The notes under the pieces were generated by a model. The model did no database searches, was not told where the DNA came from, and saw nothing but the letters and a program-made list of their open reading frames with translations. A stretch of 64,000 nucleotides of DNA, taken from positions 1-64,000 of the IMG/VR virus record IMGVR_UViG_3300008952_003220; one strand, 5' to 3'. The stretch is from a virus. Shown piece by piece: positions 1 to 43,700 of this stretch (positions are counted from its first letter, which is position 1; each line of letters starts with the position of its first letter). A program made the translations under genes and the position numbers.

Positions 1-153
1 GATAGATTTAAGGTTCTAATTGATACTACTACTACAACACAGGCTGATATTGAGAATAACACAATTAGAGGAAAGATATTCTTGCAACCTACAAGAACAG
101 CAGAATTTGTTGCACTTGACTTTGTGGTAACAAATGCTGGCACAGAAGTATGA
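1..153 (+). CDS. Tail sheath protein, C-terminal end (partial)
   Basis: An open frame enters from the left edge and stops with TGA at 151-153, giving 50 residues. The segment KIFLQPTRTAEFVALDFVV matches the conserved end of contractile-phage sheath proteins, in which a Q-P-x-R-x-A-E-F strand packs against the neighbouring subunit. The family forms the outer contractile tube of the tail. The tube gene follows 63 bases later, which is the expected order. The rest of the gene lies outside the window, so length and start cannot be judged. Confidence 0.8.
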   Translation, partial: DRFKVLIDTTTTTQADIENNTIRGKIFLQPTRTAEFVALDFVVTNAGTEV

Positions 154-216: not shown

Positions 217-708
217 ATGGCTGAAACACTGTCCGTCACAGACATGCTTCCCAATAAATTTGAGCCGAAAAGACAATTTCGGTGGGTTTTTGCTATCGAA
301 GGAATTGATTCATTCCTGATGAAGACAGCAAACAGGCCGCAGATGTCTATTGAATCTCTTGAGATTCCTTTTATCAACTCTAAGAGATATCTGGCAGGTC
401 GAATGACATTTCAGACTATGGGAATAACACTTCACGACCCCATAGCGCCCTCTGGTGCTCAGCAGGTCATGGAGTGGATTAGAACAACTTATGAATCAGT
501 CTCTGGTAGGGCTGGATATGCAGATTTCTATAAAAGAGATTGTCAGATCAAGCTTCTGGATCCAATCGGGACTGTTGTAGAGCTTTGGGATATCAAGGGT
601 GCATTTATTACTGATGCTAACTTTAACTCTCTGACATACGAAAATGATTCTAATCCGGTTGATATCTCTTTGACACTTCGTTTTGACAACTGTGTATTGC
701 AGTACTGA
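217..708 (+). CDS. Tail tube protein (T4 gp19-like)
   Basis: This 163-residue protein is the right size for the major tail tube protein of T4-like phages (gp19 is also about 163 residues), which stacks as hexamers inside the sheath to form the DNA channel. Supporting features are the N-terminal DMLPNKFEPKRQFRW segment, the internal FQTMGITLHDPIAP strand region and the end SLTLRFDNCVL, all typical of tube proteins. It follows the sheath and precedes the assembly chaperone. TAGGAG upstream supports the ATG at 217. Confidence 0.85.
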   Translation: MAETLSVTDMLPNKFEPKRQFRWVFAIEGIDSFLMKTANRPQMSIESLEIPFINSKRYLAGRMTFQTMGITLHDPIAPSGAQQVMEWIRTTYESVSGRAGYADFYKRDCQIKLLDPIGTVVELWDIKGAFITDANFNSLTYENDSNPVDISLTLRFDNCVLQY

Positions 709-766: not shown

Positions 767-832
767 ATTTTAGATGATGTATTTACTTCTGTTTGCTGAG
801 AGTTAATATTTAAAAGGACACAGGAGTGTAAG

Positions 833-1684
833 TTGGCTAACAGAAAAAAGAGAAATGAGATCTTTACATCAGACGCTGCGAAGGATATGATTCCAAAAAG
901 CAATGTCATGAAAGATGATTTCAACTGGGAGGTCCCAGTCGAAGCTGTACCACTTCCCTCAGAGGGTAAGATATATCCAAAATCACACCCTCTCCATGGC
1001 AAGAAGCTTGTTGAAATTAAGGCAATGACAGCCAAAGAAGAGGATATTCTTGCATCCAGGGCGTTGATTCAACAGGGAACAGTCATCAGTCATCTAATAG
1101 AGTCATGTGTAATTGACTCTGGGATAGATATAGACAGTATGATTCTGGGAGATAGAAATGCACTTATGGTTGCAATTAGAATTACTGGATACGGTTCAGG
1201 ATATACAGCTGAAGTCTCTTGTCAAGAGTGTTCAAAAAAGTCTGAACAGAGATTTAATCTTGCTGAGCTAGAGATAAATAGGCTTTCTATAAATCCATCT
1301 ACTCCTGGTGCTAATGAATTCTCATTTAAGCTTCCAGTAACAGGAAAGACAGTTAATTTTAAATTTCTAACAGGTCAAGATGATTACGACATGAATGTTG
1401 AGGCAAGCAGAAAAAAGAAGATGATGCCTGGAATGAAGCTTGAATCTAGAATTACATCTAAATTATCAAAGCATATTGTCTCTATCGACGGAATGACAGA
1501 TAGAAACAAGATAGGAATGTTTGCTAGCAACATGCCTGCTCAGGATTCTAGAAAGCTAAGACAGTATATTGGAGAACATGAGCCTGGAATTGACATGTCA
1601 TCATGGATGTCTTGCCCGCATTGCGGCGAGGACACGGAGGTAAACCTGCCCTTAGGGGCCAGCTTTTTTTGGCCATCGGACTAG
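833..1684 (+). CDS. Tail assembly chaperone / T4 gp26-like baseplate protein
   Basis: The 283-residue product resembles the T4 gp26-like baseplate family. It has an N-terminal LPSEGKIYP segment, the EIKAMTAKEEDILASRALI helix, two CxxC pairs (CQEC and CPHC, a possible zinc site) and the typical FFWP end. Its place between tube and tape measure is where contractile phages keep the tail assembly chaperone that coats the tape measure. The start is TTG at 833, preceded by AGGAG at 822-826. The last codons contain a T7 run (1664-1670), and the +1 frame beyond it continues as good protein sequence, so a frameshifted longer form is likely. Confidence 0.75.
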   Translation: MANRKKRNEIFTSDAAKDMIPKSNVMKDDFNWEVPVEAVPLPSEGKIYPKSHPLHGKKLVEIKAMTAKEEDILASRALIQQGTVISHLIESCVIDSGIDIDSMILGDRNALMVAIRITGYGSGYTAEVSCQECSKKSEQRFNLAELEINRLSINPSTPGANEFSFKLPVTGKTVNFKFLTGQDDYDMNVEASRKKKMMPGMKLESRITSKLSKHIVSIDGMTDRNKIGMFASNMPAQDSRKLRQYIGEHEPGIDMSSWMSCPHCGEDTEVNLPLGASFFWPSD

Positions 1685-1721
1685 CTGGAGAGAAGAGTAT
1701 CTTGAGCAGTGTTTCTTTCTT

Positions 1722-1916
1722 ATGAAGAACCTGGGAATGAGAATTGATGAGATATATAGTCTCCCTGTTACCTACAGGCTTTGGTTTATAGATAAGATTA
1801 TTGAAGGCTTCAAATCTAAGGAAAGTGCTTCTAGAAACACAAGCAGAGGCTCTAGAGCTACACAGACCCTTGATGTTCCATTCGGTGAGATGGGCAAGGG
1901 TTTGGGTGGATCTTAG
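1722..1916 (+). CDS. Frameshift extension of the tail assembly chaperone
   Basis: From the first ATG this would be a 64-residue protein. However, the same frame is open back to 1656 with no ATG, GTG or TTG and reads as plausible protein (W-R-E-E-Y-L-E-Q-C-F-F-L-M, then EIYSLPVTYRLWFIDKI). No Shine-Dalgarno precedes the ATG. The frame is entered from the upstream gene by a +1 or -2 slip on the run T7 at 1664-1670. Contractile and siphophage tail chaperones are known to use such frameshifts just before the tape measure gene. I therefore infer it encodes the C-terminal part of a G-GT-type fusion rather than a free protein. Confidence 0.6.
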   Translation: MKNLGMRIDEIYSLPVTYRLWFIDKIIEGFKSKESASRNTSRGSRATQTLDVPFGEMGKGLGGS

Positions 1917-1950: not shown

Positions 1951-4323
1951 ATGGGTAGTTTTGGTGATCAGTTAAGGATTATTGCGGGAATCGAAGACAG
2001 TCTAGTAAGCATTGCGCAGGCTCTTAGAGAGCAGGCTGGCTTACATGCCCTTATCGCTAATTCGATGCAAGATGTCTCGTCTGATGCAGATGAAACGTCT
2101 GACGGTCTAAGAAGACTAACAGAGCAGAGCGGTAGAGCTGCCAACTCGTGGACACACGATCAGCAAACAATTGTTCGAGCAACTGGCGCAGCAGCAACAG
2201 CAACAACAGCTTCCCAGAGCAAAATGACCAAAGGCCTAGATGACATGATTGACAAGGTCGGAGAGTGGTCTGGCAGGTATCGTGATCTATATAGGGGAAT
2301 TCAAGAGTTCTTCGGCGGCGGAATGCGTCTGACAGGTGAATATTATGATGATATGAACGAGCAGTCGAAACTCCTTATTGATACAACCACATACATGGTT
2401 CAACAGTTTAGCGCCCCACAGGACCAGCTTGAGAAGATGTATGGCGACGATAATAACTTAGGCTTACAGGCGATATTTGAGGATGAGGCTGAGGCCTTGT
2501 CATATTTTGAAGCTGTCCTGCAGAGATCAGTCAATACCTATGCGGCCATCGAGATGACCCGCACAAAAGCTGGTCGTGAACAAGTTCGAGACATGGCTCT
2601 GCTTGCCAAGGGCATGGGCTATTCGGCAGACCAGGCAAGCACGTTTGTTCAAAGGCAGATCTCTCTAACCGGAGAAGCTAACATTGAGATGCTGGAGGAT
2701 GCTGCAACTGCCTCAGCTGCAATAGCCAGAGAGTTTGGGATACCTCAAAAGCAGATCTCTAGGGGTCTTGAGGAGATCATAGCAAGCACAGAGAGATTTG
2801 GAAATGTCATGCCTGAGGAGGCAGCACGAATATCAGCTTCTTTGTATAAGATGGGTCTAGACTTTCAAGATCTAGAGCGGTCTGTTGGTCAGTTTCAAAG
2901 TTTTGAAAGCGCTGCTTCGGCTGTTGGAAATCTAACATCTGTCTTTGGTATCAACATGGATGCCATGGAGATGATGATGCTGGCTAATGAGGATCAGGAG
3001 CAGTTCTTGGGTCGAATGAGGTCATCGTTCCTTGATGCGGGTGTCAGTGTTGACACCCTAAATCTGGCTCAGAAGCAGTTGATTAGAGATCAGCTTGGTC
3101 TTTCATCAGTTGAATCTGTAGAGAGGCTGCTGGGACCGCTTGGTGCTGCCACTGAAGAGATTGACAGAATGCAGCAAGCCCAGGAGGGTGTGGGCCCCGA
3201 AGGTTTCGAAGCTGTCAGGCGAGATGTTCTTCTTCTGGCAGATGCAACAGAGGCTCAAAGTGATGAGATTAGAGATTCCCTTCGCCGAGCATTTGGTGCA
3301 GGCATGGTCCAAGAGCTTGTCGACTTTGATAGACAGATCGGAATCACTGGCCAGGTTATCCGTCAGGAGCTTGGAGAGGAAACTTTTCTTGCTCTTGGTG
3401 CCGGAGCTGAAACGCTTGAGAGACTTCTCGGCGTGTCTCCAGACACCTTCCTTGGGCAGCTAGGCGGTCTTATTGAGGGTCTGGGCAGAGCAATTGCAAC
3501 AGCAATCGAGGCTGGATTCGGTGCAATCAATGATATCATAGGGGGACTGGGATTACCCGCAATCCCAGGTGTCTCTTCTCTTGGCAATGAATACATTGAT
3601 TCACTTGAGCATACACTTGACAGTGCAGACACAGCTATAGCAGATCACTATGATACATGGTCTGAATCTGCTGAGGGTAATCGAGCTACATCACTGACAT
3701 CTCCCTACACAAGGGACCACGGTCAGTATCTAGAATCAATGCTATACATCACTAGAGAAAGCGAGACTGCGACTCAGCAGTTGATGGATCACTTTGCTGA
3801 TGCAGATAGGGGCTTAGGCAGTCTTACACAGAGACAGATGGATGGATCTCTTGCTCGGGGTAGGTGGCTACAACGCACTGCCCAGGAGTACATCAGACTT
3901 GGCGATATAACTGACGAAGGCCTTAGACATCTATTTGGCGGAGCTGCTGTTCGATCGGGATTTGCTCAAGAACAATTTGACCGCATGCTGACTATGGATT
4001 CAGCCCAGGAGCGGGCTACAGCGGTTGCAGATCTTGTAACAAGGAGAACACTGGAAGGATTTAATGGAGGCAGGGCTCTTGTCCCGGAAGGTGGAGATGC
4101 TGTAGCAGGCGGCGAAGGGGGCACAGCTGAAGGCGGAGGTCGCGGTACCGCCGGGTCAGATCGTGATCCATCAGTTCAAGTCAACCTTGTTGTCGATGGT
4201 AATACTCTTGCTAGCGCCCTCTTTACACCCGGGAGCAATGGTCTTTTGCCACGAATCATGGAGGGCATCCTGAGAGAGGGAGCAGGTCCAGACGGTGAGA
4301 CAGTTCAAACGAGAAGATCCTGA
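1951..4323 (+). CDS. Tail tape measure protein
   Basis: A 790-residue, mostly alpha-helical protein lies directly after the tail chaperone, where the tape measure is found. Residues 1-180 are polar and coiled-coil-like. A hydrophobic, glycine-rich stretch (LGQLGGLIEGLGRAIATAI and following, about residues 500-535) looks like the membrane-active segment many tape measures carry. The C-terminus is glycine-rich with a VNLVVDGNTLASALF strand typical of tape measure ends. In this family length sets tail length; at about 1.5 angstroms per residue the tail would be near 120 nm. RBS-like GAGAGG precedes the ATG. Confidence 0.75.
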   Translation: MGSFGDQLRIIAGIEDSLVSIAQALREQAGLHALIANSMQDVSSDADETSDGLRRLTEQSGRAANSWTHDQQTIVRATGAAATATTASQSKMTKGLDDMIDKVGEWSGRYRDLYRGIQEFFGGGMRLTGEYYDDMNEQSKLLIDTTTYMVQQFSAPQDQLEKMYGDDNNLGLQAIFEDEAEALSYFEAVLQRSVNTYAAIEMTRTKAGREQVRDMALLAKGMGYSADQASTFVQRQISLTGEANIEMLEDAATASAAIAREFGIPQKQISRGLEEIIASTERFGNVMPEEAARISASLYKMGLDFQDLERSVGQFQSFESAASAVGNLTSVFGINMDAMEMMMLANEDQEQFLGRMRSSFLDAGVSVDTLNLAQKQLIRDQLGLSSVESVERLLGPLGAATEEIDRMQQAQEGVGPEGFEAVRRDVLLLADATEAQSDEIRDSLRRAFGAGMVQELVDFDRQIGITGQVIRQELGEETFLALGAGAETLERLLGVSPDTFLGQLGGLIEGLGRAIATAIEAGFGAINDIIGGLGLPAIPGVSSLGNEYIDSLEHTLDSADTAIADHYDTWSESAEGNRATSLTSPYTRDHGQYLESMLYITRESETATQQLMDHFADADRGLGSLTQRQMDGSLARGRWLQRTAQEYIRLGDITDEGLRHLFGGAAVRSGFAQEQFDRMLTMDSAQERATAVADLVTRRTLEGFNGGRALVPEGGDAVAGGEGGTAEGGGRGTAGSDRDPSVQVNLVVDGNTLASALFTPGSNGLLPRIMEGILREGAGPDGETVQTRRS

Positions 4324-4339
4324 TAATGGAATATAGCCA

Positions 4340-4564
4340 ATGAGTTTAAAAGATAAGACACTTTCTAGCCAGACATTTTTAGACTCTCTGGGCTCTCTTA
4401 GCGAAGAAGAGTCACAGTTTGTCCAAAAGGATGTTGGAGTATTTGCTGATGATCTACAGGAGATGATTTTTTTATTATCTTCTCACATTAGATCTCAACA
4501 CGGTTCAGAAAGTCTAATTGAAGCTTTAAATGAACTTCTTTCTTCGAGGAGTGAAAATGTCTAG
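4340..4564 (+). CDS. Small acidic protein of unknown function
   Basis: This 74-residue helical, acidic protein is not recognised. It lies between tape measure and the giant baseplate protein, and its stop codon overlaps the next start (ATGTCTAG at 4557-4564), implying translational coupling. Its position in the tail operon suggests a role in tail assembly. Nothing in the sequence indicates a catalytic function. Confidence 0.6.
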   Translation: MSLKDKTLSSQTFLDSLGSLSEEESQFVQKDVGVFADDLQEMIFLLSSHIRSQHGSESLIEALNELLSSRSENV

Positions 4565-7500
4565 AGAAAAACTAAAGGACTTTCTTACCTCTGGAGGCGT
4601 GAGCTCAACTTCTGATAGATTGACATTTACATTGACAGATAGAGATGGCGACGGTATGATTGGCTATCGTGATGATCTTGCTGTTGATCCAGGAACAGGT
4701 GATAAGCTTCTAGATCTTGACAGTAGTTCTACTGGTCTATTGGGAGATTTTTTAAAGTTTATTGTTGATGATGCTAAGAATAACTTTAAGATCAATGGTG
4801 GAAATTTTGAAGCGCCTTCATCCAATCGTGGTGATTCACTGACACCTGCTGAGGTTCAAGGATCTGAAGATATTTTCGTTAGAGCTGGGACAGATATCGG
4901 TAGTGAGTTTAGTAGATACTCTAACAGCGGAAAGTTTGACGATACTTCAAAGACGCTGTCACAGATTATCAATAAGACAGGTCCTGACGACCAGAGCTCT
5001 CATCGATTGCTTTCCAGCATTCAGGGATCAGAAATTGATGAAACTGGAAAAACGCTAGCAGACACTTCTGATGAAGGGCAGAGTGATGCAACTAGGTCCG
5101 CGCAGCAGATCCTTATGAACTATAACAGATTCAATCCAGCTCCCAGCGGTAAGGCATACTCTCAGATCCCGATACATGAGGAGGATTTTGAGTCAGGCGT
5201 GAATGATTCAGGAACAGCAACATCTCAGCGTGACTTTGGAAGTTTTGATCCTGCAGGTGTTCAGATTGTTATGGATAAACTTAAAAGTGTTGGATCTTCA
5301 CTTCTTTTAAAGGCTGCTGGATGGGATTCAGCTATAAACCCAGCTATGAGTGCTGATCCTGGTAATTTTGATTTTGACTCTGCTTCAAATCCTGATCCGG
5401 CTGATGGATCTAGAGGCATTGATTCCGAGACTTTGCGATCTAAAAACGCAGCCGGTGCACCTGAGATGCCGCTTGGAACTTCAACAAGAACTGGTCGGGG
5501 GGAATTCCTAAGCCTTTCTGACCTTTCACAGTCAACACCTTCGTATGGAACAACAACAACTTACGGAACACAGTTTAGCTCAGCTAATAATTCGATTCTT
5601 AGGGCACAGGCAGTGGGAGCCATCATAGCTATGATGGAAGCATGCCAGACTTTATTTGGACTAGTAGATGAGCTTGTAAAAAATAAAGAAGGTAGTGGAC
5701 CGATTGCTGAGCTAGGTCGAGGCCCATACGCAATGGGAGAGTCAAATCCCTCACTAACAGCAAGATTTACACTGCTTCAAAGGCTTGTCCTTGTCAAGAC
5801 AGAACATGACTATGTGAAATGTGCTAAAGCGGGTGTTAAGATATTCTTTTCTGATGGCGCTAAGTTTCAAGGAGGATCAACAGATACAAAAATATCAGAT
5901 TATCAGCATGTGCAAGAGGCTCCTGGATTCTGGCTAGCGATTGCTCGTACAGTCATAAGATCAACTAGTACAATTAGGTCTGGAATTGATTCTGCACTTT
6001 CTAACTCGTTTGACTCTAGCTCAATTTCAAACTTAATAATGTCTTTGGGAAAATCTAAGATTATTGGATTTATGAATGTAGCAGCAACTGTAGGCGATTC
6101 AATGCTTAAGCTTACAGGAGGAAATCCTGATATCATGAACATAGCAGAGACATCAGGACCAAGAGATGTTGACTCTCTTCCTAACTCTCCTGCTACGAGA
6201 ATAGCCAAGAGCAGAGCTGGCGATGGGGCGTCTGCTGTGTCGCTAGCGTGGAGAGGATCTTCAGTTCCTAGTATGTATACTCTTCCGACAAATGTTATAA
6301 ATGCTGCAACCAAGATGGGAACAGTCTTTGCTGGTACAAATCCAGCTCGAGGAATGCTAGGTTCCAGACTCGTTACAAAGACTTATGTAGATCCAAATGC
6401 TGAAGGATACAATGCAAGAATAAGGGGAGACATAGTTGAAAGAATGGAAAACACACTTGATGCTGAGTATGTTCCATTTTATTTTCATGACCTAAGGACT
6501 AATGAGATAGTTGCTTTTCACGCATTTCTTAAAAATCTTACTGAAAGCTATTCAGCTCAGTACGGAGAGACAACAGGGTATGGTAGAATAGACCCAGTCC
6601 TGACGTATAATTCAACTAAGCGGTCTCTTAGCTTGACATTTGCTGTTGCTGCAACTTCTAAAGATGATTTTGATGAGATGTGGTGGAAGATTAATAAAAT
6701 TATTACACTTATCTATCCACAGTGGACAGAGGGAATGAGAGTAGCAAACCCAAGCAATGATTCTACTTTTATTGTTCCATTTAGCCAGGTCTTAGGCGCT
6801 TCTCCGATGATAAGACTAAGAATCGGAGACGTTATTAAGAGCAACTATTCTAAGTTTAATCTAGCTAGACTTTTTGGAGTGGGAAATACAGACATTAATC
6901 CCAAGCCTATAAGCGAGAGTGATTCTCTTTTTTCTTCTGGTCTGGGATCTGGAAATGTCATGTCAGCTATTGATGGATTTTTAAATACATTATTCTATCT
7001 TAGCTTTGGAAGCCCAGTTTCACTTATTGACGGTTCAGGATTTTTAGCATCAGCTGGTCAGGCACTTCTATCAGAGATCTCTGTTAACGGGTTTGCCAAT
7101 CCTGCGGGGGTAGCACTTACACTGAGAGCTCAGACAGATCCAGACACTGTGATAAATTCAAGTGCTGGTGCCAGCTCTCTTTCAGGCCAGATTACAGCAA
7201 CTGCGCTTAATACTCTTGGAAGCAATACAGATCTATTTGGGTATAGGACATTTGGAATCCATTATCTTAAACCAAATCAGAATAAGGGCTATACACTTGT
7301 TGATGATGATTCTAGGTCTCCAGTCGGGACACGCTTTCACACTATGAGATCAGTCAGGGTGATGGTGATTGGTCGAGAGAAAGCAGCTAGCATGAAGTGG
7401 GATAGAGAAAAATCTATTCTTGAAAACAAAAGTGATGCTAACGCAAATTCATCTTTCAAGGGTCCAGCCCGATCTGGTCAGGCTTCTCAAAAAACGTATT

Positions 7501-8093
7501 ACAAGGTTATGGTTATTGATCTAAACGCACCTATTGACATGTTTGGATCTGTTTTTAAGGTCACACACACTGATATAACAACAAACTATTCATCAATCTT
7601 TGCAACGTCAGCTGGGCCTCTTCTTGCAGGTGTAGGGGGTACAGCTGATGCAGCCGCTGAAGCTCTTACAAGAGCAGCTGCATCATCAATTGGAATTCCA
7701 GCTGATGAGATAAATTTCTTTCAGTCTGATACAGAAAAGTTTATGAGCTCTGAAAATAATGCTATCGTTCGTGCATTTGAATCTACAAGGGGACGAGGGC
7801 TGCCTGGGTTTGTTAGAAGCATACAGCTAGACTGGCTTAAGGGAACGTGGGAGACAGATTGGAATTCTCGAGCACCAAAGTACGCTGAGATCACTATTCA
7901 GTTTGATGTTGTTCATGATATTCCGCCCGGAATCGACTATAGCGGATATAATAGGGCACCTAACTATAATGTTGGAGATATTATGAGATCTGTTGCAGGT
8001 GATTCGTATGACGACGATGGCGCTGCTTCAGAGGATACCTGGAGAGCAGCTGGAACTTCTGGATTTAGATCAACAAGAGAGACAGATAATTAA
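4557..8093 (+). CDS. Large baseplate / tail-tube-associated protein with EF-hand-like loop
   Basis: This protein has 1178 residues from the ATG at 4557, chosen because GAGGAG lies just upstream; an ATG at 4530 is in frame but lacks an RBS. Residues 28-39 (DRDGDGMIGYRD) form a complete EF-hand or dockerin-type calcium loop. The region around residues 630-720 (HAFLKNLTESYSAQYGE, YGRIDPVLTY, SLTFAVAATS) and the end with DIPPGIDYSGYNRAPNYNVG are patterns I associate with tail and baseplate proteins of marine myophages. It precedes the LysM-like baseplate gene. The exact role, such as tube initiator or wedge, is unknown. Confidence 0.65.
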   Translation: MSREKLKDFLTSGGVSSTSDRLTFTLTDRDGDGMIGYRDDLAVDPGTGDKLLDLDSSSTGLLGDFLKFIVDDAKNNFKINGGNFEAPSSNRGDSLTPAEVQGSEDIFVRAGTDIGSEFSRYSNSGKFDDTSKTLSQIINKTGPDDQSSHRLLSSIQGSEIDETGKTLADTSDEGQSDATRSAQQILMNYNRFNPAPSGKAYSQIPIHEEDFESGVNDSGTATSQRDFGSFDPAGVQIVMDKLKSVGSSLLLKAAGWDSAINPAMSADPGNFDFDSASNPDPADGSRGIDSETLRSKNAAGAPEMPLGTSTRTGRGEFLSLSDLSQSTPSYGTTTTYGTQFSSANNSILRAQAVGAIIAMMEACQTLFGLVDELVKNKEGSGPIAELGRGPYAMGESNPSLTARFTLLQRLVLVKTEHDYVKCAKAGVKIFFSDGAKFQGGSTDTKISDYQHVQEAPGFWLAIARTVIRSTSTIRSGIDSALSNSFDSSSISNLIMSLGKSKIIGFMNVAATVGDSMLKLTGGNPDIMNIAETSGPRDVDSLPNSPATRIAKSRAGDGASAVSLAWRGSSVPSMYTLPTNVINAATKMGTVFAGTNPARGMLGSRLVTKTYVDPNAEGYNARIRGDIVERMENTLDAEYVPFYFHDLRTNEIVAFHAFLKNLTESYSAQYGETTGYGRIDPVLTYNSTKRSLSLTFAVAATSKDDFDEMWWKINKIITLIYPQWTEGMRVANPSNDSTFIVPFSQVLGASPMIRLRIGDVIKSNYSKFNLARLFGVGNTDINPKPISESDSLFSSGLGSGNVMSAIDGFLNTLFYLSFGSPVSLIDGSGFLASAGQALLSEISVNGFANPAGVALTLRAQTDPDTVINSSAGASSLSGQITATALNTLGSNTDLFGYRTFGIHYLKPNQNKGYTLVDDDSRSPVGTRFHTMRSVRVMVIGREKAASMKWDREKSILENKSDANANSSFKGPARSGQASQKTYYKVMVIDLNAPIDMFGSVFKVTHTDITTNYSSIFATSAGPLLAGVGGTADAAAEALTRAAASSIGIPADEINFFQSDTEKFMSSENNAIVRAFESTRGRGLPGFVRSIQLDWLKGTWETDWNSRAPKYAEITIQFDVVHDIPPGIDYSGYNRAPNYNVGDIMRSVAGDSYDDDGAASEDTWRAAGTSGFRSTRETDN

Positions 8094-8410: not shown

Positions 8411-11400
8411 TTGGCTAAAAAACACAGCTCTTCAACAATACACCAGTCAGCTCTTGGTGAGCTTCGCGGTTTTTTCGGATTTCAGTCGAATTCTGATTTA
8501 ATTAGTCTTGCGACAGGCATTCAGGCAGGTGGTGATGAATCAGCAGTCTCTCAGGCCCAGGTCGGGCTTGTTGGAAACTTAGGAGGCCAGGGAAATACAG
8601 TTGTTCAAGATGGGTACTCAGACGAAGTACAGGCAATTATGAGCCTTCTTCTTGATGTAACAGAAGGTGCTTACTACACTTATAACTTTACCACAGAGAC
8701 TGAATTAAAGCAGACTTTAGCTGAAATTCCACAAGGTGGAGTTGAAGAGGGCACACACGCCTTCGGCATACAGAGTTTTGTTCAAATAGTACACGAAGGT
8801 CCTTTAACTATTGATGCTTTTCATGTCATAAAACATGAACGCCAGGATGATGAAGGTAGGACTGTCAGTCAGAAAATGAGCAGGATAGTTGCACCTGCAA
8901 AACAAGGCACAGCTGGGAGCTATGACGGTCTTTGTTCAGAAGAAGAAGTCGGTATAAATATTGGATCTGCAACAAGACCTAACAAAATTTCTTCTCCTTC
9001 TCTTTCAGCTTATCTATTTCCAAGTCTTAGAATTGGACCCCAGACACGTGATACGGATTCGGTTGGAATCTTTGCTAATTCAATTCCCAATGTAGAGCTA
9101 AGCAGATGTGTTCCGTATATTAATATGACATTTTATACCGATCTTCCGGGTGAAAATGTCCAGGCTGATAAGAACGGCCAGATGGGAATTTTAAGATTCT
9201 TGGGTGCTGTTGACCACGGCCCAACACCAACTAGTCTTGACAATACCGGTCTGGCAAACGTTACTCCAGATATTGTTTTTCAACAAATTGAAGGAGATGA
9301 CCTTGCAGGTGATATTCTAGACAGCGCGGGAATGGATACCGGCGATCAGACTAGAGTTGGATTTGCAGGAATGGAGATGTTCACAGCACCAATGACGCTT
9401 GCTAATGCCGATATGAATGCTAGTGGCTATGTGGCTTCTCACTATGGAAACAAAGAGATCCTGGATCCCCTTAGGCCTCTCCTTTCACTCACATCATTGA
9501 CTGTTAGAATAGATGGAACTGGTCATGCAGCGCTTGCTTCAAAAAAAGCTTCAGTTAGCATGAAGCTCCACGATAGATCTAGAATGTCTGATATAGCACC
9601 CATGATATCTGCAGATAGATTTGCAAATACACACGTTATTGTTGAGTACGGGTGGAAGCATCCTGACGGAGGATTTAATAGTAACAATGTATACGGTAGG
9701 TTTCTGGATAGTCTTAAGCTTAAAGATGCTTTCAACATCACACACACGAATATGTCTATTAATAATACCGGTGAAGTTGATATTACAATGGAGCTGGCAA
9801 ACTTAGGAACTTTTGCAGCTGTTACAGCTCCAATTGTAGCAGGAAGATTTATTCCTCTTTCAATTGCTAAGTCGTTAATAGACAGATATATTTCAGGGTT
9901 AATGAGCATTAATAATTCGCAGGTAGGCTCAGTTTTAACAGATATTAGAAATAAGTTTGAGGTGGGCGTCGGCGATGCTGCTGGATCCTCTGCAATTGTT
10001 AGGAGGTCAATAGTATCAGATATAGTTCAAAATGTTAGAAGTGGCAATATTTCTGAGCTATCACAGATCATAGAAGATCTCGTAGGTGAAGACGGAACAG
10101 GCGGAGCACTGTCTGACTCTGCAGACTCTATTGGATCAGAAATAGGTAATAAGCTTGCCGCCCTAGACATCAACATCGGCGGAGATATAGATGTGTTTTG
10201 GCATCAGGGCATGTTTCAAAGGCTTATTAACTTTACATATGGATCGGAAGATTCATCAGCACACTCTGAAGCTAACAGCGATGTTTATGTATCTCTTGGA
10301 AGAGTTGTTTGTAGCTTTATAGGTTACCCTATTGCTTCTTGCCTTGCTTTTGATGAAGTTCAGGTTATGTTTTATTCTTTCAATAGTCAGGCCGGTTCTA
10401 TGAGACCTTATTCTACATGCCACTTTCCAATTAAAATTGCGAAGCTCACAGGGCTTATAGATCAGATGGCTTACGGGTCAGATGGAGGTGAGCTAGGTCG
10501 AACACCAACGACAGCAGATATGATGTCTATTCTTACAGAGCTGGTTTCAAATCCAAACGATCTTGCGTATGGGATGTCAAATCTATATGAAGAGTATAGG
10601 AGCGGAGAGCAAGAGTCAGAAGCTGTTAACAAAATGTCAGAAGCTGAGCGAGAGGCATATAATGAGAGCCGACAGGTAGCTGAGGATCTGCTGTCGAGCA
10701 GTCAGTCTAGCAAGCTAGAGTCAATTTATCTTGATGACGGTCTCGGAGGTACAGGAGATTTTAAACAGCCCCAGCTGGAATTTTATCTTGAGGCAGTTCC
10801 CGCTCTAACACTAGACGATGAAGGGACAAGAGGTGTCGTAGAGGGCTCTACGATTCTTAGGATTCATGTCTTTGATAAGTCTGCATCTCCTCACGTATCT
10901 GAGCTCTTTATGTTAAGAATGGCAAATGATTCAGAGATTGCCTCAAGGTATAATCAGGTAGCCGCTTCTGAAGAGAGACTTTCTTCTTCTGAAGAATCTC
11001 TTTCTAGAGCCGAAGGTGATCCTGCACGACAACTCACACTCTCCAATCTAAGAGATATAGATGAGGAAGCTTATACTGCTGCCAGCAGTAATTTTACATC
11101 ATACGTTAATTCGTTACCGTCCTGGGTTATAAAAGAGGCGATAAAGACAACTGTGCCTAGCATAACTATGGGATCAATGTTTAATGCAATAAAAAATGTA
11201 TCTGTTAACTCAACAACAAGCGGAGCTGTCGGGAGAGAAAGGCTTATAACAGCAACATTAGATCGGGCGGATAATCAAGAGATGCAAGGTGCTGGCAGTA
11301 ATGTTGATGATATATTTGTCATTCCTGCTACGCTTGATATAAAGATGTTTGGAATGCCGCTTCTTAACTATTCTCAGCAGTTTTTTATTGATCTAGGGAC

Positions 11401-11581
11401 CGGTACAACACTTGATAACATATATGCTGCAACAGTCATTAGTCATACACTCAATTCATCCGGGTTTGAGACAAGCTTTAAGGGCACTTTTCAGGGAAGC
11501 GGCACGACTAGAAACCTAAGGAACACACTTATAGCTGTCCAGCCTGTTCTTAAAGAAGCTGAAGAAGAAAATGAACAGTAG
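8411..11581 (+). CDS. Large baseplate hub-like structural protein
   Basis: The 1056-residue product starts at TTG (8411) nine bases after the LysM gene. The central part has KLHDRSRMSDIAPMIS (about residues 390-405) and VIVEYGWKHPDG (about 412-423). I know that combination from hub-type proteins of large myophages, which resemble the T4 gp27/P2 gpD ring that plugs the tube. The N-terminal part reads as a beta-rich domain and a helical region lies near residues 860-900. It closes the tail operon. Assignment as hub is from position and these motifs. Confidence 0.65.
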   Translation: MAKKHSSSTIHQSALGELRGFFGFQSNSDLISLATGIQAGGDESAVSQAQVGLVGNLGGQGNTVVQDGYSDEVQAIMSLLLDVTEGAYYTYNFTTETELKQTLAEIPQGGVEEGTHAFGIQSFVQIVHEGPLTIDAFHVIKHERQDDEGRTVSQKMSRIVAPAKQGTAGSYDGLCSEEEVGINIGSATRPNKISSPSLSAYLFPSLRIGPQTRDTDSVGIFANSIPNVELSRCVPYINMTFYTDLPGENVQADKNGQMGILRFLGAVDHGPTPTSLDNTGLANVTPDIVFQQIEGDDLAGDILDSAGMDTGDQTRVGFAGMEMFTAPMTLANADMNASGYVASHYGNKEILDPLRPLLSLTSLTVRIDGTGHAALASKKASVSMKLHDRSRMSDIAPMISADRFANTHVIVEYGWKHPDGGFNSNNVYGRFLDSLKLKDAFNITHTNMSINNTGEVDITMELANLGTFAAVTAPIVAGRFIPLSIAKSLIDRYISGLMSINNSQVGSVLTDIRNKFEVGVGDAAGSSAIVRRSIVSDIVQNVRSGNISELSQIIEDLVGEDGTGGALSDSADSIGSEIGNKLAALDINIGGDIDVFWHQGMFQRLINFTYGSEDSSAHSEANSDVYVSLGRVVCSFIGYPIASCLAFDEVQVMFYSFNSQAGSMRPYSTCHFPIKIAKLTGLIDQMAYGSDGGELGRTPTTADMMSILTELVSNPNDLAYGMSNLYEEYRSGEQESEAVNKMSEAEREAYNESRQVAEDLLSSSQSSKLESIYLDDGLGGTGDFKQPQLEFYLEAVPALTLDDEGTRGVVEGSTILRIHVFDKSASPHVSELFMLRMANDSEIASRYNQVAASEERLSSSEESLSRAEGDPARQLTLSNLRDIDEEAYTAASSNFTSYVNSLPSWVIKEAIKTTVPSITMGSMFNAIKNVSVNSTTSGAVGRERLITATLDRADNQEMQGAGSNVDDIFVIPATLDIKMFGMPLLNYSQQFFIDLGTGTTLDNIYAATVISHTLNSSGFETSFKGTFQGSGTTRNLRNTLIAVQPVLKEAEEENEQ

Positions 11582-18396: not shown

Positions 18397-19767
18397 ATGG
18401 ATCCATACTTTAAGAGATACGGTAAGTCATTTCAAGAAAAGATTTTTCAATCTTTCTTGACAGATAGTAACTGGGCTACTCAGATGACTGATGTGATGAC
18501 ACCTGAATATTTTGATTTAAAGTATCTCACCTATTTGACACAGAAGTATTTTTCTTATTTTGAAAAGTATAAGTGCTTTCCAACGCTATCGATACTGGTC
18601 ACGATTATCAAGGATGAGCTAAAGGAAGGAACAGATGCAATTCTTCGAGATCAGATAGTTGAATTTCTTCATAGAGTAAGAATGAATCCAGATGCAGGAG
18701 ATTTAAAGTATGTCAAAGAAAAGTCTCTTGATTTTTGTAGAAAGCAGGCATTAAAAGATGCCCTGGAAAAGTCTGTTGAATTGATTGAGTCTGAGAAGTA
18801 TGAGTCAGTTGTTGATTTAATGAAGCATGCGATATCTGTTGGAACGCCTTCTACTACTGGTCATGATTTTTTTGAAGACACAGAAGCCAGATTTGCTAAG
18901 ATTAGCAGGATTACATGCCCGACTGGTATTCCACAAATTGACAAAAAGGACATATTAAACGGAGGGCTTGGACGAGGAGAGATTGGTGTAATCACAGCTC
19001 CCACGGGTGTTGGAAAATCTCACTTTTTAGTACACGTCGGTGCAGCAGCACTCAGGGTTGGAAAAAATGTTGTTCATTATACTTTTGAACTAACAGAGAC
19101 ATCTGTCGGGATTAGATACGATAGCAATCTATGTAATATTCCAAGTAATGAAGTAAGGGATAGAAAGAAAGAGGTACTTTCTAAATACGATAATATGGAC
19201 TTAGGAAGGTTAATAATCAAGGAGTACCCAACAGGATCTGCAACAGTCAATACTATTAGAGCACATCTTGAAAAACTTTCTCTTAAATCTTTTGTTCCAA
19301 GTCTGATAATTATTGATTATGCAGACATCATGAGATCATCTAGAAAGTATGATTCTCTTAGGCATGAGCTTAAATTAATATATGAAGAGCTTAGAAATCT
19401 GGCGATGGATATGAAAATTCCTATATGGACAGCCAGTCAGGCCAATAGAGATGCGTCTAACGCTTCAGTTGTCGGATTAGAAAATATGTCTGAGGCCTAT
19501 GGAAAGGCTATGGTTTCTGACGTTGTTGTCTCAATATCAAGAAAGCCTATGGAAAAATCTAGCGGTGTAGGTAGAATGTTTATAGCTAAAAATAGAGCAG
19601 GTCGTGATGGAATTCTTTTTCCGATTATGCTGGATACTTCTACCAGCCGTATTAATATAATTGACAATGCAGATGAGCTCTCTTTAAGTGAAGTCGTAAA
19701 GTCTGACAAAGATCTTATGAAAAACTTATTAAAATCTAAGTGGAATGAATTACAAAGCGGTGATTAA
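18397..19767 (+). CDS. DnaB-like replicative helicase
   Basis: The 456-residue protein has an N-terminal DnaB-type helical region and a RecA-like C-terminal ATPase. The Walker A is APTGVGKSHFL (about residues 202-212), followed by VVHYTFELTETSVGIRYDS, the Walker B-like LIIIDYADIM and PIWTASQANRDA with the sensor Gln. It most resembles T4 gp41-type helicases and should unwind DNA as a hexameric ring. No primase domain is fused to it and no primase gene was recognised in the window. Confidence 0.85.
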   Translation: MDPYFKRYGKSFQEKIFQSFLTDSNWATQMTDVMTPEYFDLKYLTYLTQKYFSYFEKYKCFPTLSILVTIIKDELKEGTDAILRDQIVEFLHRVRMNPDAGDLKYVKEKSLDFCRKQALKDALEKSVELIESEKYESVVDLMKHAISVGTPSTTGHDFFEDTEARFAKISRITCPTGIPQIDKKDILNGGLGRGEIGVITAPTGVGKSHFLVHVGAAALRVGKNVVHYTFELTETSVGIRYDSNLCNIPSNEVRDRKKEVLSKYDNMDLGRLIIKEYPTGSATVNTIRAHLEKLSLKSFVPSLIIIDYADIMRSSRKYDSLRHELKLIYEELRNLAMDMKIPIWTASQANRDASNASVVGLENMSEAYGKAMVSDVVVSISRKPMEKSSGVGRMFIAKNRAGRDGILFPIMLDTSTSRINIIDNADELSLSEVVKSDKDLMKNLLKSKWNELQSGD

Positions 19768-19813: not shown

Positions 19814-22270
19814 GTGGTAAGTTTTAATGATGCTATGAAGAGTAGCAAAGTGTATTTTGGAGGAGATGAGCTTTCAGCAAATGTTTTTGTTACGAAGTAT
19901 GCGCTTTCAACAAAAGATGGTGATTTATTAGAAAGAACACCAGATGATATGCACAGAAGAATGGCACAAGAGTTTTCTAGAATAGAGGAAAAGTACCCAA
20001 GCCCAATGTCTGAAGATGAGATTTATAATTTATTTAAAGATTTTAAATATGTTATTCCTCAAGGCTCTCCGATGGCGGGTATTGGAAATGATCATAGAAT
20101 TCAGTCACTTTCTAATTGCTTTGTTATTGAATCACCTTATGATTCGTATGGTGGAATTCTAAAAACTGATCAAGAACTTGTCCAGATCGCAAAGAGAAGA
20201 GGCGGCGTGGGATTTGATATTTCTACGATTAGGCCCAAGGGTCTTTCTACGGGTAACGCTGCAAAGACGACTGATGGAATTGAAGTTTTTATGGATAGGT
20301 TTTCTAATTCCTGTCGAGAAGTAGCCCAGGGCGGCCGCAGAGGCGCATTGATGTTGACAATATCTGTCCATCACCCACAGATTAAAGACTTTGTAAAGAT
20401 CAAACGAGAGCTAACCAGGGTCACCGGAGCAAATATATCAGTTAAGCTCACTGATGAATTTTTAAACGCTGTTGAGAAAAAGACAGATTTTGAACTTAGA
20501 TTTCCAGTTGATTCTGAGTCTGATCACCTTGTTAAGGGCAGAATGGATGCTTGTGATCTCTGGGACGAAATTATAAAGTGCGCACATGACTGTGCTGAGC
20601 CTGGTCTTCTTTTTTGGGACACAGCGAAAAATTTAACACCTTCTGATGTATACGACTCCGATGGATTCGGATCTACTTCTACAAATCCATGCGGGGAAAT
20701 TATTTTATCTCCTTTTGATAGTTGTAGATTAATGGTTATTAATCTTTTTAGCTTTGTTAAGAATCCGTTTACTAAAGATGCAGAATTTGACTATCAAAAA
20801 ATGTCTACCATTGTTCAGAAGGCTCAGCGCCTGATGGATGACATGGTTGATCTTGAAGTTGAACAAATTGAAAAAATTATTAAAAAAATAAATGATGATC
20901 CTGAACCTGAGAACGTTAAAGAAATTGAAAAAGACCTTTGGATGAATATTAAAAAGGCTGCTGAGCTTGGCAGGAGAACTGGTCTGGGTGTGACTGCAGT
21001 CGGAGATACATTGGCATCTCTAGGCATCAGGTATGGTTCAAAAAAATCTATTGAGATCACAGAAGAGCTATATAAGACACTTGCAGTTAACGCTTACAGA
21101 TCTTCTTGTATTATGGCAAAAGAAAGAGGTGCTTTTCCTATTCACAATCATGATAAAGAGAGGGGTCACGAATTCCTTGAAAGAGTTTGGGGTTCTGCTG
21201 CTGACGTCCATGAGATGAGCAAAAAATACGGTCGCAGAAATATAGCTCTAACGACTACAGCGCCTGCTGGGTCTGTATCAACTCTCACGCAAACGACTAG
21301 CGGAATAGAGCCTGCATATCTTCTTAAGTACACAAGAAGAAAAAAGCTCACAGAAAATGATCTAGATGGAAGAGTGGACTTTATTGATGATTCAGGAGAT
21401 CGGTGGCAAGAGTATGATGTCTACCACCACGGATTTAAAAAATGGATGGATATATCTGGACTAACAGATATTAAAAAATCTCCTTATTATAATGCTACTT
21501 CAAATGATATTGACTGGATAAACAAAGTAAATGTTCAAGCTTCTGCACAAAAATGGATTTGTCATGCAATTTCAAATACTACAAATGTACCATCAGACAC
21601 AGACATAGAGACCATCAAGAAGATCTACATGACAGGGTGGAAGTCAGGGTGCAAAGGTGTTACTGTTTATAGGGACGGCTGCCGTAGCGGAGTTCTAGTA
21701 AGCTCTATAAAGGAAAATAAGTTTAAAACATATGAAGCACCTTTAAGGCCAGAAGAGCTTGAGTGCCATATTCATCACGCAACAATTAAGGGTGAAGCCT
21801 GGACGGTAATGGTAGGACTTTTGGATGGCAGGCCATACGAAGTCATGGGCGGACTACAGAAGTACATAGAGATACCTCGAAAATATAAGAAAGGAATCAT
21901 TATAAAGCATGCGTATAAGTCTAAGAATTCTAGATACGATCTTCAGATTGGCAAAAATGGTGACGGATTTCTTATAAAGGATATTGTTTCAGTTTTTGAC
22001 AACCCTAACCACGCTGGACATACTAGGACAATCTCTCTTGCACTTCGTCATGGAGCACCTATTCAATATGTCGTCGAACAGCTTTTAAAAGATCGAGAGA
22101 TGGATATGTTTTCTTTTTCAAAGGTTATAGCAAGAGTTCTTAAAACATATATTAAAGACGGAACTGTCCCAGGAAAGACGGGATGTGAAAATTGCGGAGC
22201 AGAAGACTCTTTGAGATATCAAGAGGGGTGTGTGGGTTGTGTGTCATGTGGATATGCTAAGTGCGGATAA
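19814..22270 (+). CDS. nrdJ: Adenosylcobalamin-dependent (class II) ribonucleotide reductase
   Basis: The 818-residue enzyme would reduce ribonucleotides to deoxyribonucleotides. Seen in the sequence are SNCFVI (redox Cys), KRRGGVGFDISTIRP, NPCGEI (radical Cys and Glu), a second redox Cys shortly after (SPFDSCRL), and PAGSVSTLTQTTSGIEPAY. A Cys-rich C-terminus (CENCGAED, CVGCVSCGYAKC) is the usual class II shuttle/zinc tail. Class II requires B12 but not oxygen and needs no NrdB, consistent with none being found nearby. The start is GTG after GGGAGG. No cobalamin riboswitch fits in the 46-base upstream gap. Confidence 0.9.
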   Translation: MVSFNDAMKSSKVYFGGDELSANVFVTKYALSTKDGDLLERTPDDMHRRMAQEFSRIEEKYPSPMSEDEIYNLFKDFKYVIPQGSPMAGIGNDHRIQSLSNCFVIESPYDSYGGILKTDQELVQIAKRRGGVGFDISTIRPKGLSTGNAAKTTDGIEVFMDRFSNSCREVAQGGRRGALMLTISVHHPQIKDFVKIKRELTRVTGANISVKLTDEFLNAVEKKTDFELRFPVDSESDHLVKGRMDACDLWDEIIKCAHDCAEPGLLFWDTAKNLTPSDVYDSDGFGSTSTNPCGEIILSPFDSCRLMVINLFSFVKNPFTKDAEFDYQKMSTIVQKAQRLMDDMVDLEVEQIEKIIKKINDDPEPENVKEIEKDLWMNIKKAAELGRRTGLGVTAVGDTLASLGIRYGSKKSIEITEELYKTLAVNAYRSSCIMAKERGAFPIHNHDKERGHEFLERVWGSAADVHEMSKKYGRRNIALTTTAPAGSVSTLTQTTSGIEPAYLLKYTRRKKLTENDLDGRVDFIDDSGDRWQEYDVYHHGFKKWMDISGLTDIKKSPYYNATSNDIDWINKVNVQASAQKWICHAISNTTNVPSDTDIETIKKIYMTGWKSGCKGVTVYRDGCRSGVLVSSIKENKFKTYEAPLRPEELECHIHHATIKGEAWTVMVGLLDGRPYEVMGGLQKYIEIPRKYKKGIIIKHAYKSKNSRYDLQIGKNGDGFLIKDIVSVFDNPNHAGHTRTISLALRHGAPIQYVVEQLLKDREMDMFSFSKVIARVLKTYIKDGTVPGKTGCENCGAEDSLRYQEGCVGCVSCGYAKCG

Positions 22271-40797: not shown

Positions 40798-43700
40798 ATG
40801 TCTAAATTTAGTCAATTTTCTGTGCCTAAGCACTTTGCAGGCCTTCACGCTCATGATGGTAGTTCTGTCTATGATGGATTGGGATATCCAGATGAGCACA
40901 TCGATTTTGTGTTGCAAAATGAGATGAATGCCTTTGCTCTGACAAACCACGGCCACATGAATTCAGCTGCTCACGCACACAACTACTCAAAAAAGCTTAA
41001 GAATAAAGGTGTCAATTACAGGCATATCTACGGCTGTGAGTGCTACTTTGTTGACTCACTTGATGAGTGGAGTCAGGACTATCACGAGCACAGAGAGGCA
41101 GTGCGCCTGGAGCGAGAGGCTAAGAAGAAGGTTGCGCTTGTTGACACAGGCGATGAGAATGAGGGCCTTGTCATCGAGAATGAGGCAGAGTCAAAGAATG
41201 AGAGGGGCTCTTATCCTGCATGGAAGCGTCGGTATCACCTTGTCGTGCTGGCAAAGAACTACAAGGGGCTGCAGAATCTCTTTAGATTGGTCAAGAGATC
41301 ATACAAGGAGGGGTTCTATAGGTTTCCTCGTATCGACTATAAGATGCTTAAGGAGCACTCTGAGGGGCTTATTGTCTCAACAGCGTGCGTCGGAGGTAGG
41401 CCCTCAGGTCATATCTACCAGAGCTTCGAGGGTAAGAAGTTTGATGAGTTGACACCTGACCTTGTTGATGACCCAGCAGTTCTCAATTCTATCATGAGAA
41501 AGCTTGAGAACATGACAGATAGATTTGTTGACGCTGTTGGTGAGGAGAATTTTTTCTTAGAGGTACAATTCAACGACCTTGTTGCACAAAATCTTACAAA
41601 TAGGTGTCTAATTGAGCTTTCAAAGAGAACTGGGATTCCACTTCTTGCAACAGCTGACTCTCACTACTGTAATCCAGACATGTGGGAGGCACGTGAGATG
41701 TATAAACTTCTTGGAAGAATGGGGTCTCGTGGAGCTGAGATGCCCAAGATTCCTAAAAAGGAAGATTTAAAGTGTGAGCTCTATCCTAAAAATGCTAAGC
41801 AGATGTGGGATGAATTTGGAAAGAGTTATGGCAAATATGACTTCTACAAGGGAAGTGAAGATGTCGTTCGTGAAGCAATTGAGAGATCTCACGGAATTGC
41901 TTGGGACATGTGCGAAGAGGTCTGGTTTGACGGATCAGCAAAGCTTCCAAACTTCGGAACACCTGAGAAGCCCGCGTTTACGCAGCTTGTTGAACAGGTA
42001 AAGCAAGGGATGATCAAGGAAGAGCTTCATGATAAGCCTGAATACATTGAGCGAATCAGAGAGGAGATGTCTGTTATCAAGCAGCTTGGGTTTGAAAATT
42101 ACTTTTTGACCCTTACCAAGGTCTTTGAGAAGTCGCAGCACAGAACACTTCTAGGCCCCGGTCGTGGCTCCGGTGGCGGTAGCTTGGTCAACTACGTCCT
42201 AGGGATTACACACATTGATCCAATTAAATACGGGCTTCTGTTTGAGAGGTTCCTTGGCATTCACAAGGCAAGCTGGCCTGATATTGATTCTGATGTAGGT
42301 GACAGAGATGTTCTTATTGATGTCTCTAGAGATCTGTTTGGTGACGATGCTGTTATACCTGTTTCTAACTTTAATACCCTTAAGCTTAAGTCTCTTATCA
42401 AGGACATCGGCAAGTTTTATGGTATTCCGTTTGATGAGATCAATGCCCTAACAGGCCCGCTTGAAAGAGAGGTGATGCACCGAGCGATGGGTGATCACGA
42501 GGAGCGGTCAACTTATGTCTTGACCCACGAGGATTGTCTTAAGTATAGTGATGCCTATCTTGAATTTATGTCAAAGTATCCCAAGATTGCTGAGCACGTT
42601 CAGACACTTTTTATGGAGCCTCGGTCTATCGGCAGACATGCTGGCGGAGTCCTAGTTTGCCCTGATATTGAAAGTCACATGCCTGTCATCAAAGTGAGAG
42701 GTGAGCTCCAGACGCCATGGTCAGAGGGCATGAACTGGCGACATCTTGAGGAGAATGGGTTTCTTAAGTTTGACTTTCTCGGTCTGGCAACGCTGAAGAT
42801 GGTCGAGGATTCAATCCGTCTAATTTTAAGAAACCAGGGTGTTGAGAATCCTACCTTCGATCAGATCAATGAGTTCTTTGACGCTCATCTAAATAGTAGA
42901 TTTAATGCTATGGACGACCAGAAGGTGTGGAAGTATGTCTATCACGGTGGCAGGTTTGTTCAAATCTTTCAGTTTACCAACACCGGTGCTAGAAAGTTCT
43001 GCGTGGCAGCCAAACCTACATCTATTGAGGACCTTGCTACAATCACAGCAATCTATCGACCTGGCCCGCTGGCTGCAAATGTCCATAGGAAATACGTCAA
43101 GGCAGGCCTAAATCTAGATGAGATCACATACGACCACCCAGTTCTTGAAGAGCTGCTTAGCGAAAGTCGTGGGTTCGTTGTCTTTCAGGAGCAGTTCATG
43201 CTCATCGCTCAGAAGCTCTGTGGTTTTGACAAGGGTGCATCTGACAAGATGAGAAAGACGCTAGTCAAGAAGTCACTTGACATGAATGCTAAGAAGGCGC
43301 AGGAAAGGACAGATCTTAGGAAGAAGTTTATTACCGGTGCAGTTGAGCTATCTGACATGGATGAGAACAAGGCAGTTAAGCTTTATGAGACCATTGAGGC
43401 TTTCTCTGCCTACGGCTTCAACAAGTCACACGCTGTCGCCTATGCTGTTGACTCATACTACTCTGCCTGGTTGCACACTTACTATGAGAAGGAGTGGCTG
43501 GCAACGTGCCTGCAAACTTGGAATGGATCCAATAAGTTCGGCAAACTGATAAGTGAGATTAAGACTCTAGGATATAAGATCCTAAAGCCTGACATCAATT
43601 ACTCCTCAGATGTCTGGGTCTACAGTGAGGAGCGTGAAGGATTTGTTCCACCCTTGACAGCTATCAAGGGTGTTGGAAGCTCCGCAGTTGAGGAGATTAT

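Follow-up and report, generated by a model that had tools for sequence, protein, structure and literature searches.

Frameshifting in tail assembly chaperone genes, exemplified by the G/GT pairs (Xu et al. 2004, as cited in PMC9024508), is widely conserved, with T4 named as an exception (PMC5009743). In phage lambda, the tape measure protein is bound by gpG, gpGT brings in the tail tube protein through its T part, and both products leave the finished tail (PMC5009743). For T4, the list of hub assembly chaperones includes both gp26 and gp51; gp51 is essential, is absent from the virion and is of unknown function (PMC3004832). Here, we report on a locus from an uncultured virus in which a gp26-like gene very probably yields a short and a long form of a tail chaperone by a programmed +1 ribosomal frameshift.

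The window, i.e., the whole stretch of 64,000 nucleotides that was analyzed, lies within a 134,713-base virus record (IMGVR_UViG_3300008952_003220), and its first 4.3 kb hold tail genes in the order sheath, tube, gp26-like chaperone gene and tape measure. Their features are the following:

1-153, plus strand: C-terminal part of a tail sheath gene truncated at the edge of the window (phrog_23 tail sheath, E 2e-6)
217-708, plus strand: tail tube protein, gp19-like (phrog_4542 tail tube, E 1.1e-25; PF06841, E 1.1e-5, slightly below the Pfam cut-off)
822-826, plus strand: Shine-Dalgarno sequence AGGAG, 6 nt before a TTG start (read from the sequence)
833-1684, plus strand: 0-frame gene for the short form of the predicted tail assembly chaperone, 283 aa, gp26-like (PF12322, 59.5 bits, curated cut-off 24.5; phrog_150, E 5.9e-19; AlphaFold2 model, pLDDT 90.5)
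1664-1672, plus strand: predicted frameshift site TTT TTT TGG, next +1 codon GGC (TTTTTTTGG in 64 of the 82 sequences compared below, YTT-TGG in nearly all; re-pairing table)
1682-1684, plus strand: 0-frame stop TAG, end of the short form (read from the sequence)
1671-1916, plus strand: +1-frame extension, 81 codons and a stop, three predicted helices, putative counterpart of the T4 gp51 C-terminus (alignment of 40 relatives; purifying selection; HHalign against the cyanophage extension, E 4.6e-7; model)
join(833..1669,1671..1916), plus strand: predicted frameshift fusion, long chaperone form, 360 aa (translation skipping one base; arrangement conserved in relatives)
1951-4323, plus strand: tape measure protein, 790 aa (PF10145 PhageMin_Tail, E 0.0012, under the Pfam cut-off; placed after the chaperone as in relatives)

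The 0-frame gene ends in AGC TTT TTT TGG CCA TCG GAC TAG. The first four of these codons (1661-1672) are in frame with TTG 833 and contain a run of seven T at 1664-1670, and the slip motif ends 9 bases before the stop. The +1 frame is open from 1656 to its stop at 1914-1916, and the first ATG, GTG or TTG that it contains is the ATG at 1722, which has no Shine-Dalgarno-like sequence, in contrast to TTG 833 with its AGGAG. A preliminary description of this DNA had already given the position of the T run, the stop, the open +1 frame and the lack of any start until ATG 1722, all of which are present. At the junction, the predicted +1 fusion protein of the window reads ...VNLPLGASFFGHR...

Regarding the short form, PF12322 (T4_baseplate) covers the product of 833-1684 over profile positions 11-219 of 219, and phrog_150, to which the 283-residue product also matches, is a baseplate hub family. 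Together with the gene order, these two matches bear out the earlier reading of a gp26-like gene upstream of the tape measure. The virus record contains one PF12322 match and T4 two; T4 gp26 and T4 gp51 both belong to PF12322 and phrog_150. The short form and the +1 extension were modelled as separate chains. When the AlphaFold2 model of the short form was realigned to 663 PDB chains, the best two were YqbN (Z 5.3), which we take to be an XkdN-type phage chaperone, and the HK97 tail assembly chaperone (Z 4.7), both weak by the standard of the tool (Z under 8). Since Foldseek alone finds no significant match for this model in the PDB, the likeness to a chaperone fold is suggestive only.

This organization resembles that of lambda gpG/gpGT, in that a short and a C-terminally extended form would be produced from one gene located just before the tape measure gene. 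As in G/GT-type pairs, the gene lies between tube (217-708) and tape measure (1951-4323), the second reading frame begins within the 3' end of the first without a start of its own, and the arrangement is conserved, being found in all 82 sequences compared and in distant phages. Unlike the lambda G/GT shift, which is -1, the shift proposed here is +1, and the gene is a member of the T4 gp26 family, with no sequence homology to the lambda genes shown. The order sheath, tube, chaperone and tape measure is also that of the P2 E/E+E' region, whose frameshift is annotated as -1, unlike the +1 shift of this locus. P2 E' was considered as a homologue of the extension, to which it is alike by eye, and was rejected, its hmmsearch scores lying within those of shuffles.

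A scan of viral contigs provided 80 relatives, to which Flavobacterium phage immuto, Microcystis phage Mel-JY01, one uncultured huge phage and the window were added. Two loci ending before the 0-frame stop were left out, and 82 sequences (window included) were scored, three of them being partial contigs that end within the extension; clustering reduces them to 60 groups at 70% identity and to 20 at 50%. In all 82, which is far beyond chance, a slip motif lies 15-24 nt ahead of the 0-frame stop, and the +1 frame runs open through and past it. Besides the 64 copies of TTTTTTTGG, the slip sites are TTTCTTTGG (11), TTTTTTTAC (3), TTCTTTTGG (2), TTTTTATGG (1) and TTTCTATTC (1), and the T run is interrupted in the 15 that carry TTTCTTTGG, TTCTTTTGG, TTTTTATGG or TTTCTATTC. 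Relatives had been expected to keep both the run and the two frames: the frames proved invariable, whereas the homopolymer did not, and it is dispensable since these 15 sequences interrupt it. YTT occupies the second slip position in 80 of the 82, and among the 60 representatives (less than 70% identical) 58 have TTT as the first slip codon and 58 have TGG as the A-site codon. Moreover, wherever the second slip codon of these representatives encodes Phe, it is TTT (52/52), the share of TTT in the rest of these genes being 71% (P about 8e-9). The constraint on the slip site is one on nucleotides and not on the protein alone. The programmed frameshift in the tail chaperone gene put forward in the preliminary description is thus supported by gene order, by the gp26/PF12322 assignment, by the conserved frames and slip site and by the missing start codons.

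The same arrangement extends to distant phages. RM378 (Rhodothermus) has the identical TTT TTT TGG followed by a +1 extension, and +1 extensions are also found in SP-15 (TTT TTT CAC), LIS04 (TTT TTT AGT), GXN1 (TTC TTT CGT) and BRock (CTG TTT CGC). A scan of genome contigs added a single new relative, an Erysipelotrichaceae contig (L240) with a +1 extension at TTT TTT CGT. In the jumbo phages 121Q (L107), PA5oct (L112) and Atu_ph07 (L111), with T_TTT_TTC, and XacN1 (L109), with T_TTT_TTT, the extension is in the -1 frame after the gp26-like gene. An Alishewanella phage (L106:2851-3800) on a very long branch has a gp26-like gene that ends past the usual Phe-Phe and a +1 frame resembling the gp51 C-terminus.

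The direction of the shift, which had been left as +1 or -2, was addressed by a simple re-pairing table of 88 sites, i.e., the 82 sequences plus GXN1, LIS04, SP-15, RM378, BRock and L240. The same frames would be joined, with one extra Phe added, if ribosomes shifted by -2 on the T run, and a -2 shift is known in phage Mu (PMC5009743). Re-pairing of tRNA-Phe in the -2 direction is allowed at 83 of the 88 sites, including the T7 of the window, which alone cannot separate +1 from -2. However, it is barred at L044 and L063 (TTC TTT TGG), L084 (TTT CTA TTC), GXN1 and BRock, all of which allow +1, and no site among the 88 allows -2 without allowing +1. With P-site tRNA re-pairing possible in the +1 direction at 88/88 sites and -2 excluded at five, the shift is most likely +1, and a -2 shift is improbable. 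A -2 re-pairing of the phage Mu type is hence not possible throughout the family, 5 lineages excluding it.

It is highly improbable that the extension is an independent gene, translated from an internal start or by re-initiation at the 0-frame stop, as this would leave the codon constraint on the slip site unexplained. An ATG, GTG or TTG of some kind does exist in the +1 frame at 47 of the 82 loci, and two cultured relatives are annotated with the extension as a separate gene; in L105, a very distant 595-kb phage, an ATG overlaps the stop of the gp26-like gene (TAATG; L105:3769 onwards), maybe marking a translationally coupled separate gene. Against this, no ATG, GTG or TTG precedes extension codon 12 in the +1 frame at 35 loci, window included, 64 loci have no start within extension codons 1-12, 16 have one at most 15 nt from the 0-frame stop, and a start with a Shine-Dalgarno-like sequence is found at only 8. 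With 35 loci devoid of a start there and 64 lacking one in codons 1-12, the relatives as a group do not display the ribosome binding site and ATG of a separate gene, which the preliminary description had named as evidence that would refute frameshifting. Slippage of RNA polymerase on the T run, leaving some transcripts one base short, is hardly credible: the T7 of the window is uninterrupted, but interrupted runs remove the homopolymer that this process needs, and the 15 relatives with a broken run (e.g., TTTCTTTGG) retain both frames. Homopolymers being error-prone in sequencing, the window alone would also admit a sequencing or assembly error that split one gene, but the same break recurs in 82 sequences that stem from many projects and include isolates whose run is interrupted (Flavobacterium phage immuto, L082, TTTCTTTGG), which refutes the sequencing correction envisaged earlier and makes this explanation negligible.

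In the programmed +1 frameshift that we favour, most ribosomes would stop at 1682 and release the 283-residue short form, counterpart of lambda gpG and T4 gp26. In a minority, the peptidyl-tRNA would be on UUU (1667-1669, or 1664-1666) while UGG, a codon read by a single tRNA, awaits decoding in the A site; the P-site tRNA would then slip one base forward onto UUU, translation would continue in the +1 frame, and the 360-residue long form, counterpart of lambda gpGT, would be made. By analogy with lambda, the short form may coat the tape measure and the extension may recruit tail tube subunits, both forms presumably leaving before tail completion. The sequences themselves show both frames, the slip site with its conservation, selection on the extension, the gene order and homology to gp26 and, via cyanophages, to gp51; the ribosome slip, its rate and the assembly role of the two products are what we infer.

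Upstream of the +1 slip sites, Shine-Dalgarno-like sequences are depleted (6% vs 19% background), and downstream there is no extra structure (mean z -0.24). Since neither is present, the +1 signal seems to comprise hardly anything beyond a P-site YUU, an A-site UGG and a following C; no known stimulator being found, the efficiency of the shift may be low. In bacterial prfB, a P-site YUU likewise slips onto UUU, and the CUU variant found here resembles the prfB CUU U (PMC10885494). Unlike in prfB, the A site is occupied by TGG, TAC or TTC and in no case by a stop codon, and there is no upstream Shine-Dalgarno-like stimulator. The influenza PA-X +1 site, UUU CGU (PMC5009743), similarly places a P-site UUU before a sense codon with no obvious stimulator, and resembles the UUU CGU C of GXN1 and L240 and the UUU CGC G of BRock; virus and gene are unrelated, though, and the A-site codon here is mostly UGG.

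Regarding the extension itself, substitutions in 68 close pairs number 406/144/1098 at +1-frame codon positions 1/2/3, which points to purifying selection on the +1 frame. Its core consensus, GL...Y.E..YE..F.L.Y.GGWSF.E.YNLP...R.WF..RL, is conserved over 40 diverse members, and three helices are predicted in its model. Judged from these sequence data, the extension appears to be translated in the +1 frame, and the protein coding that had been claimed ahead of ATG 1722 is substantiated by purifying selection and by conservation of the extension in relatives. Searched alone against Pfam and PHROGs, the +1 extension of the window has no match. Among 40 single extensions, hmmscan gave weak hits to DUF6760 in 18 (best E 2.6e-4), to phrog_20255 in 21 (best E 3.8e-5) and to phrog_634 in 4 (best E 0.18). 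DUF6760 and phrog_20255 are families without known function; DUF6760 may represent this module in contractile injection systems.

In the cyanophage Syn9 (gp26/gp51 region at L157:2979-3892), a gene annotated as 'T4 gp51-like' stands directly after gp26 as a separate gene, and the match to phrog_634 (E 1.2e-31) traces the gp51 frame farther upstream, where it overlaps the last part of gp26 as its -1 frame. In 81/81 cyanophage-type loci (Syn9 and 80 contigs, L158-L237), gp26 has an in-frame T_TTT_TTC ahead of its stop, and the -1 frame runs on into the extension; a Shine-Dalgarno-like 4-mer lies upstream of this heptamer at all loci tested, against a background of 16%. The cyanophage gp26/'gp51-like' pair has the same two parts as the window locus, and its junction lies at the same point, after a conserved Phe-Phe. 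Unlike the +1 extension of the window, the cyanophage one would be reached by a canonical -1 heptamer with its upstream 4-mer; the window and its relatives are not of this -1 class, their extension being in the +1 frame.

By profile comparison (HHalign), the window-type extension matches the cyanophage-type extension with a score above all 200 column shuffles, and the cyanophage extension matches the C-terminus of T4-type gp51 (E 1.6e-10), again above all 200 shuffles. Compared directly with the gp51 C-terminus, the window-type extension gives a weak match in the same register (E 0.014, 2/200 shuffles as high). When only a shallow set of T4 gp51 C-termini was used, the +1 extension scored no better than shuffles in HHalign, and it took cyanophage intermediates and a wider range of gp51 sequences to make the comparison informative. 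These profiles argue that the +1 extension is homologous to the gp51 C-terminus via the cyanophage extension, a larger result that is absent from the preliminary description.

In T4, gp26 matches the short form, and gp51 consists of the same domain followed by a C-terminal segment matching the extension via cyanophages; unlike the window, T4 and other Straboviridae have two separate genes and no frameshift. Because the extension appears homologous to the cyanophage frame and thence to the gp51 C-terminus, T4 gp26 and gp51 look like short and long chaperone forms made from two paralogous genes, which seem to have replaced the shift. On the simplest account, a single gene with a frameshift would serve most of the superfamily, and two genes would do so in T4 and its close kin. 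In a tree of the shared domain, T4-type gp26 and gp51 form one clade (98/89) beside the cyanophages (100/100), and the jumbo phages with a -1 extension lie opposite, in the midst of the +1 phages. At least four changes between the four states are required on this tree, in which several end branches are long, so that the exact placement of RM378, BRock and the Alishewanella phage is uncertain. It is probable that T4 is no exception and that two chaperone forms are obtained by a -1 shift in cyanophages and some jumbo phages, by a +1 shift lacking recognizable stimulators at YUU-UGG-C in a large uncultured group including the window, and by gene duplication in Straboviridae. The fusion, and not the mechanism, would be what is selected, since the direction of the shift changed more than once on the tree. 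In the literature, no paper was found that proposes a gp26-gp51 frameshift, most subscription papers lying outside the scope of this search.

If this reading is true, cyanophage 'gp51' is an extension of gp26 and not a gene of its own, and the annotation of many marine phages would be corrected. Considering gp26 and gp51 as two chaperone forms makes the role of gp51 directly testable. Moreover, phages with a -1 shift, a +1 shift or none would form a natural series showing how the direction of a frameshift changes while the fused product is kept, and YUU-UGG-C would be a widespread +1 site in phages of bacteria, without recognizable stimulator.

Finally, between the tape measure and the replication genes, the window contains two very long open reading frames, at 4530-8093 (1187 aa) and 8411-11581 (1056 aa), which have no PHROG or Pfam match and whose position suggests baseplate or fibre proteins. 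The phage encodes a DnaB-like helicase (18397-19767), the large subunit of a ribonucleotide reductase (19814-22270) and a bacterial-type DNA polymerase III alpha subunit (40798-44385; phrog_405, E 7e-231), a set unlike the T4 replisome.
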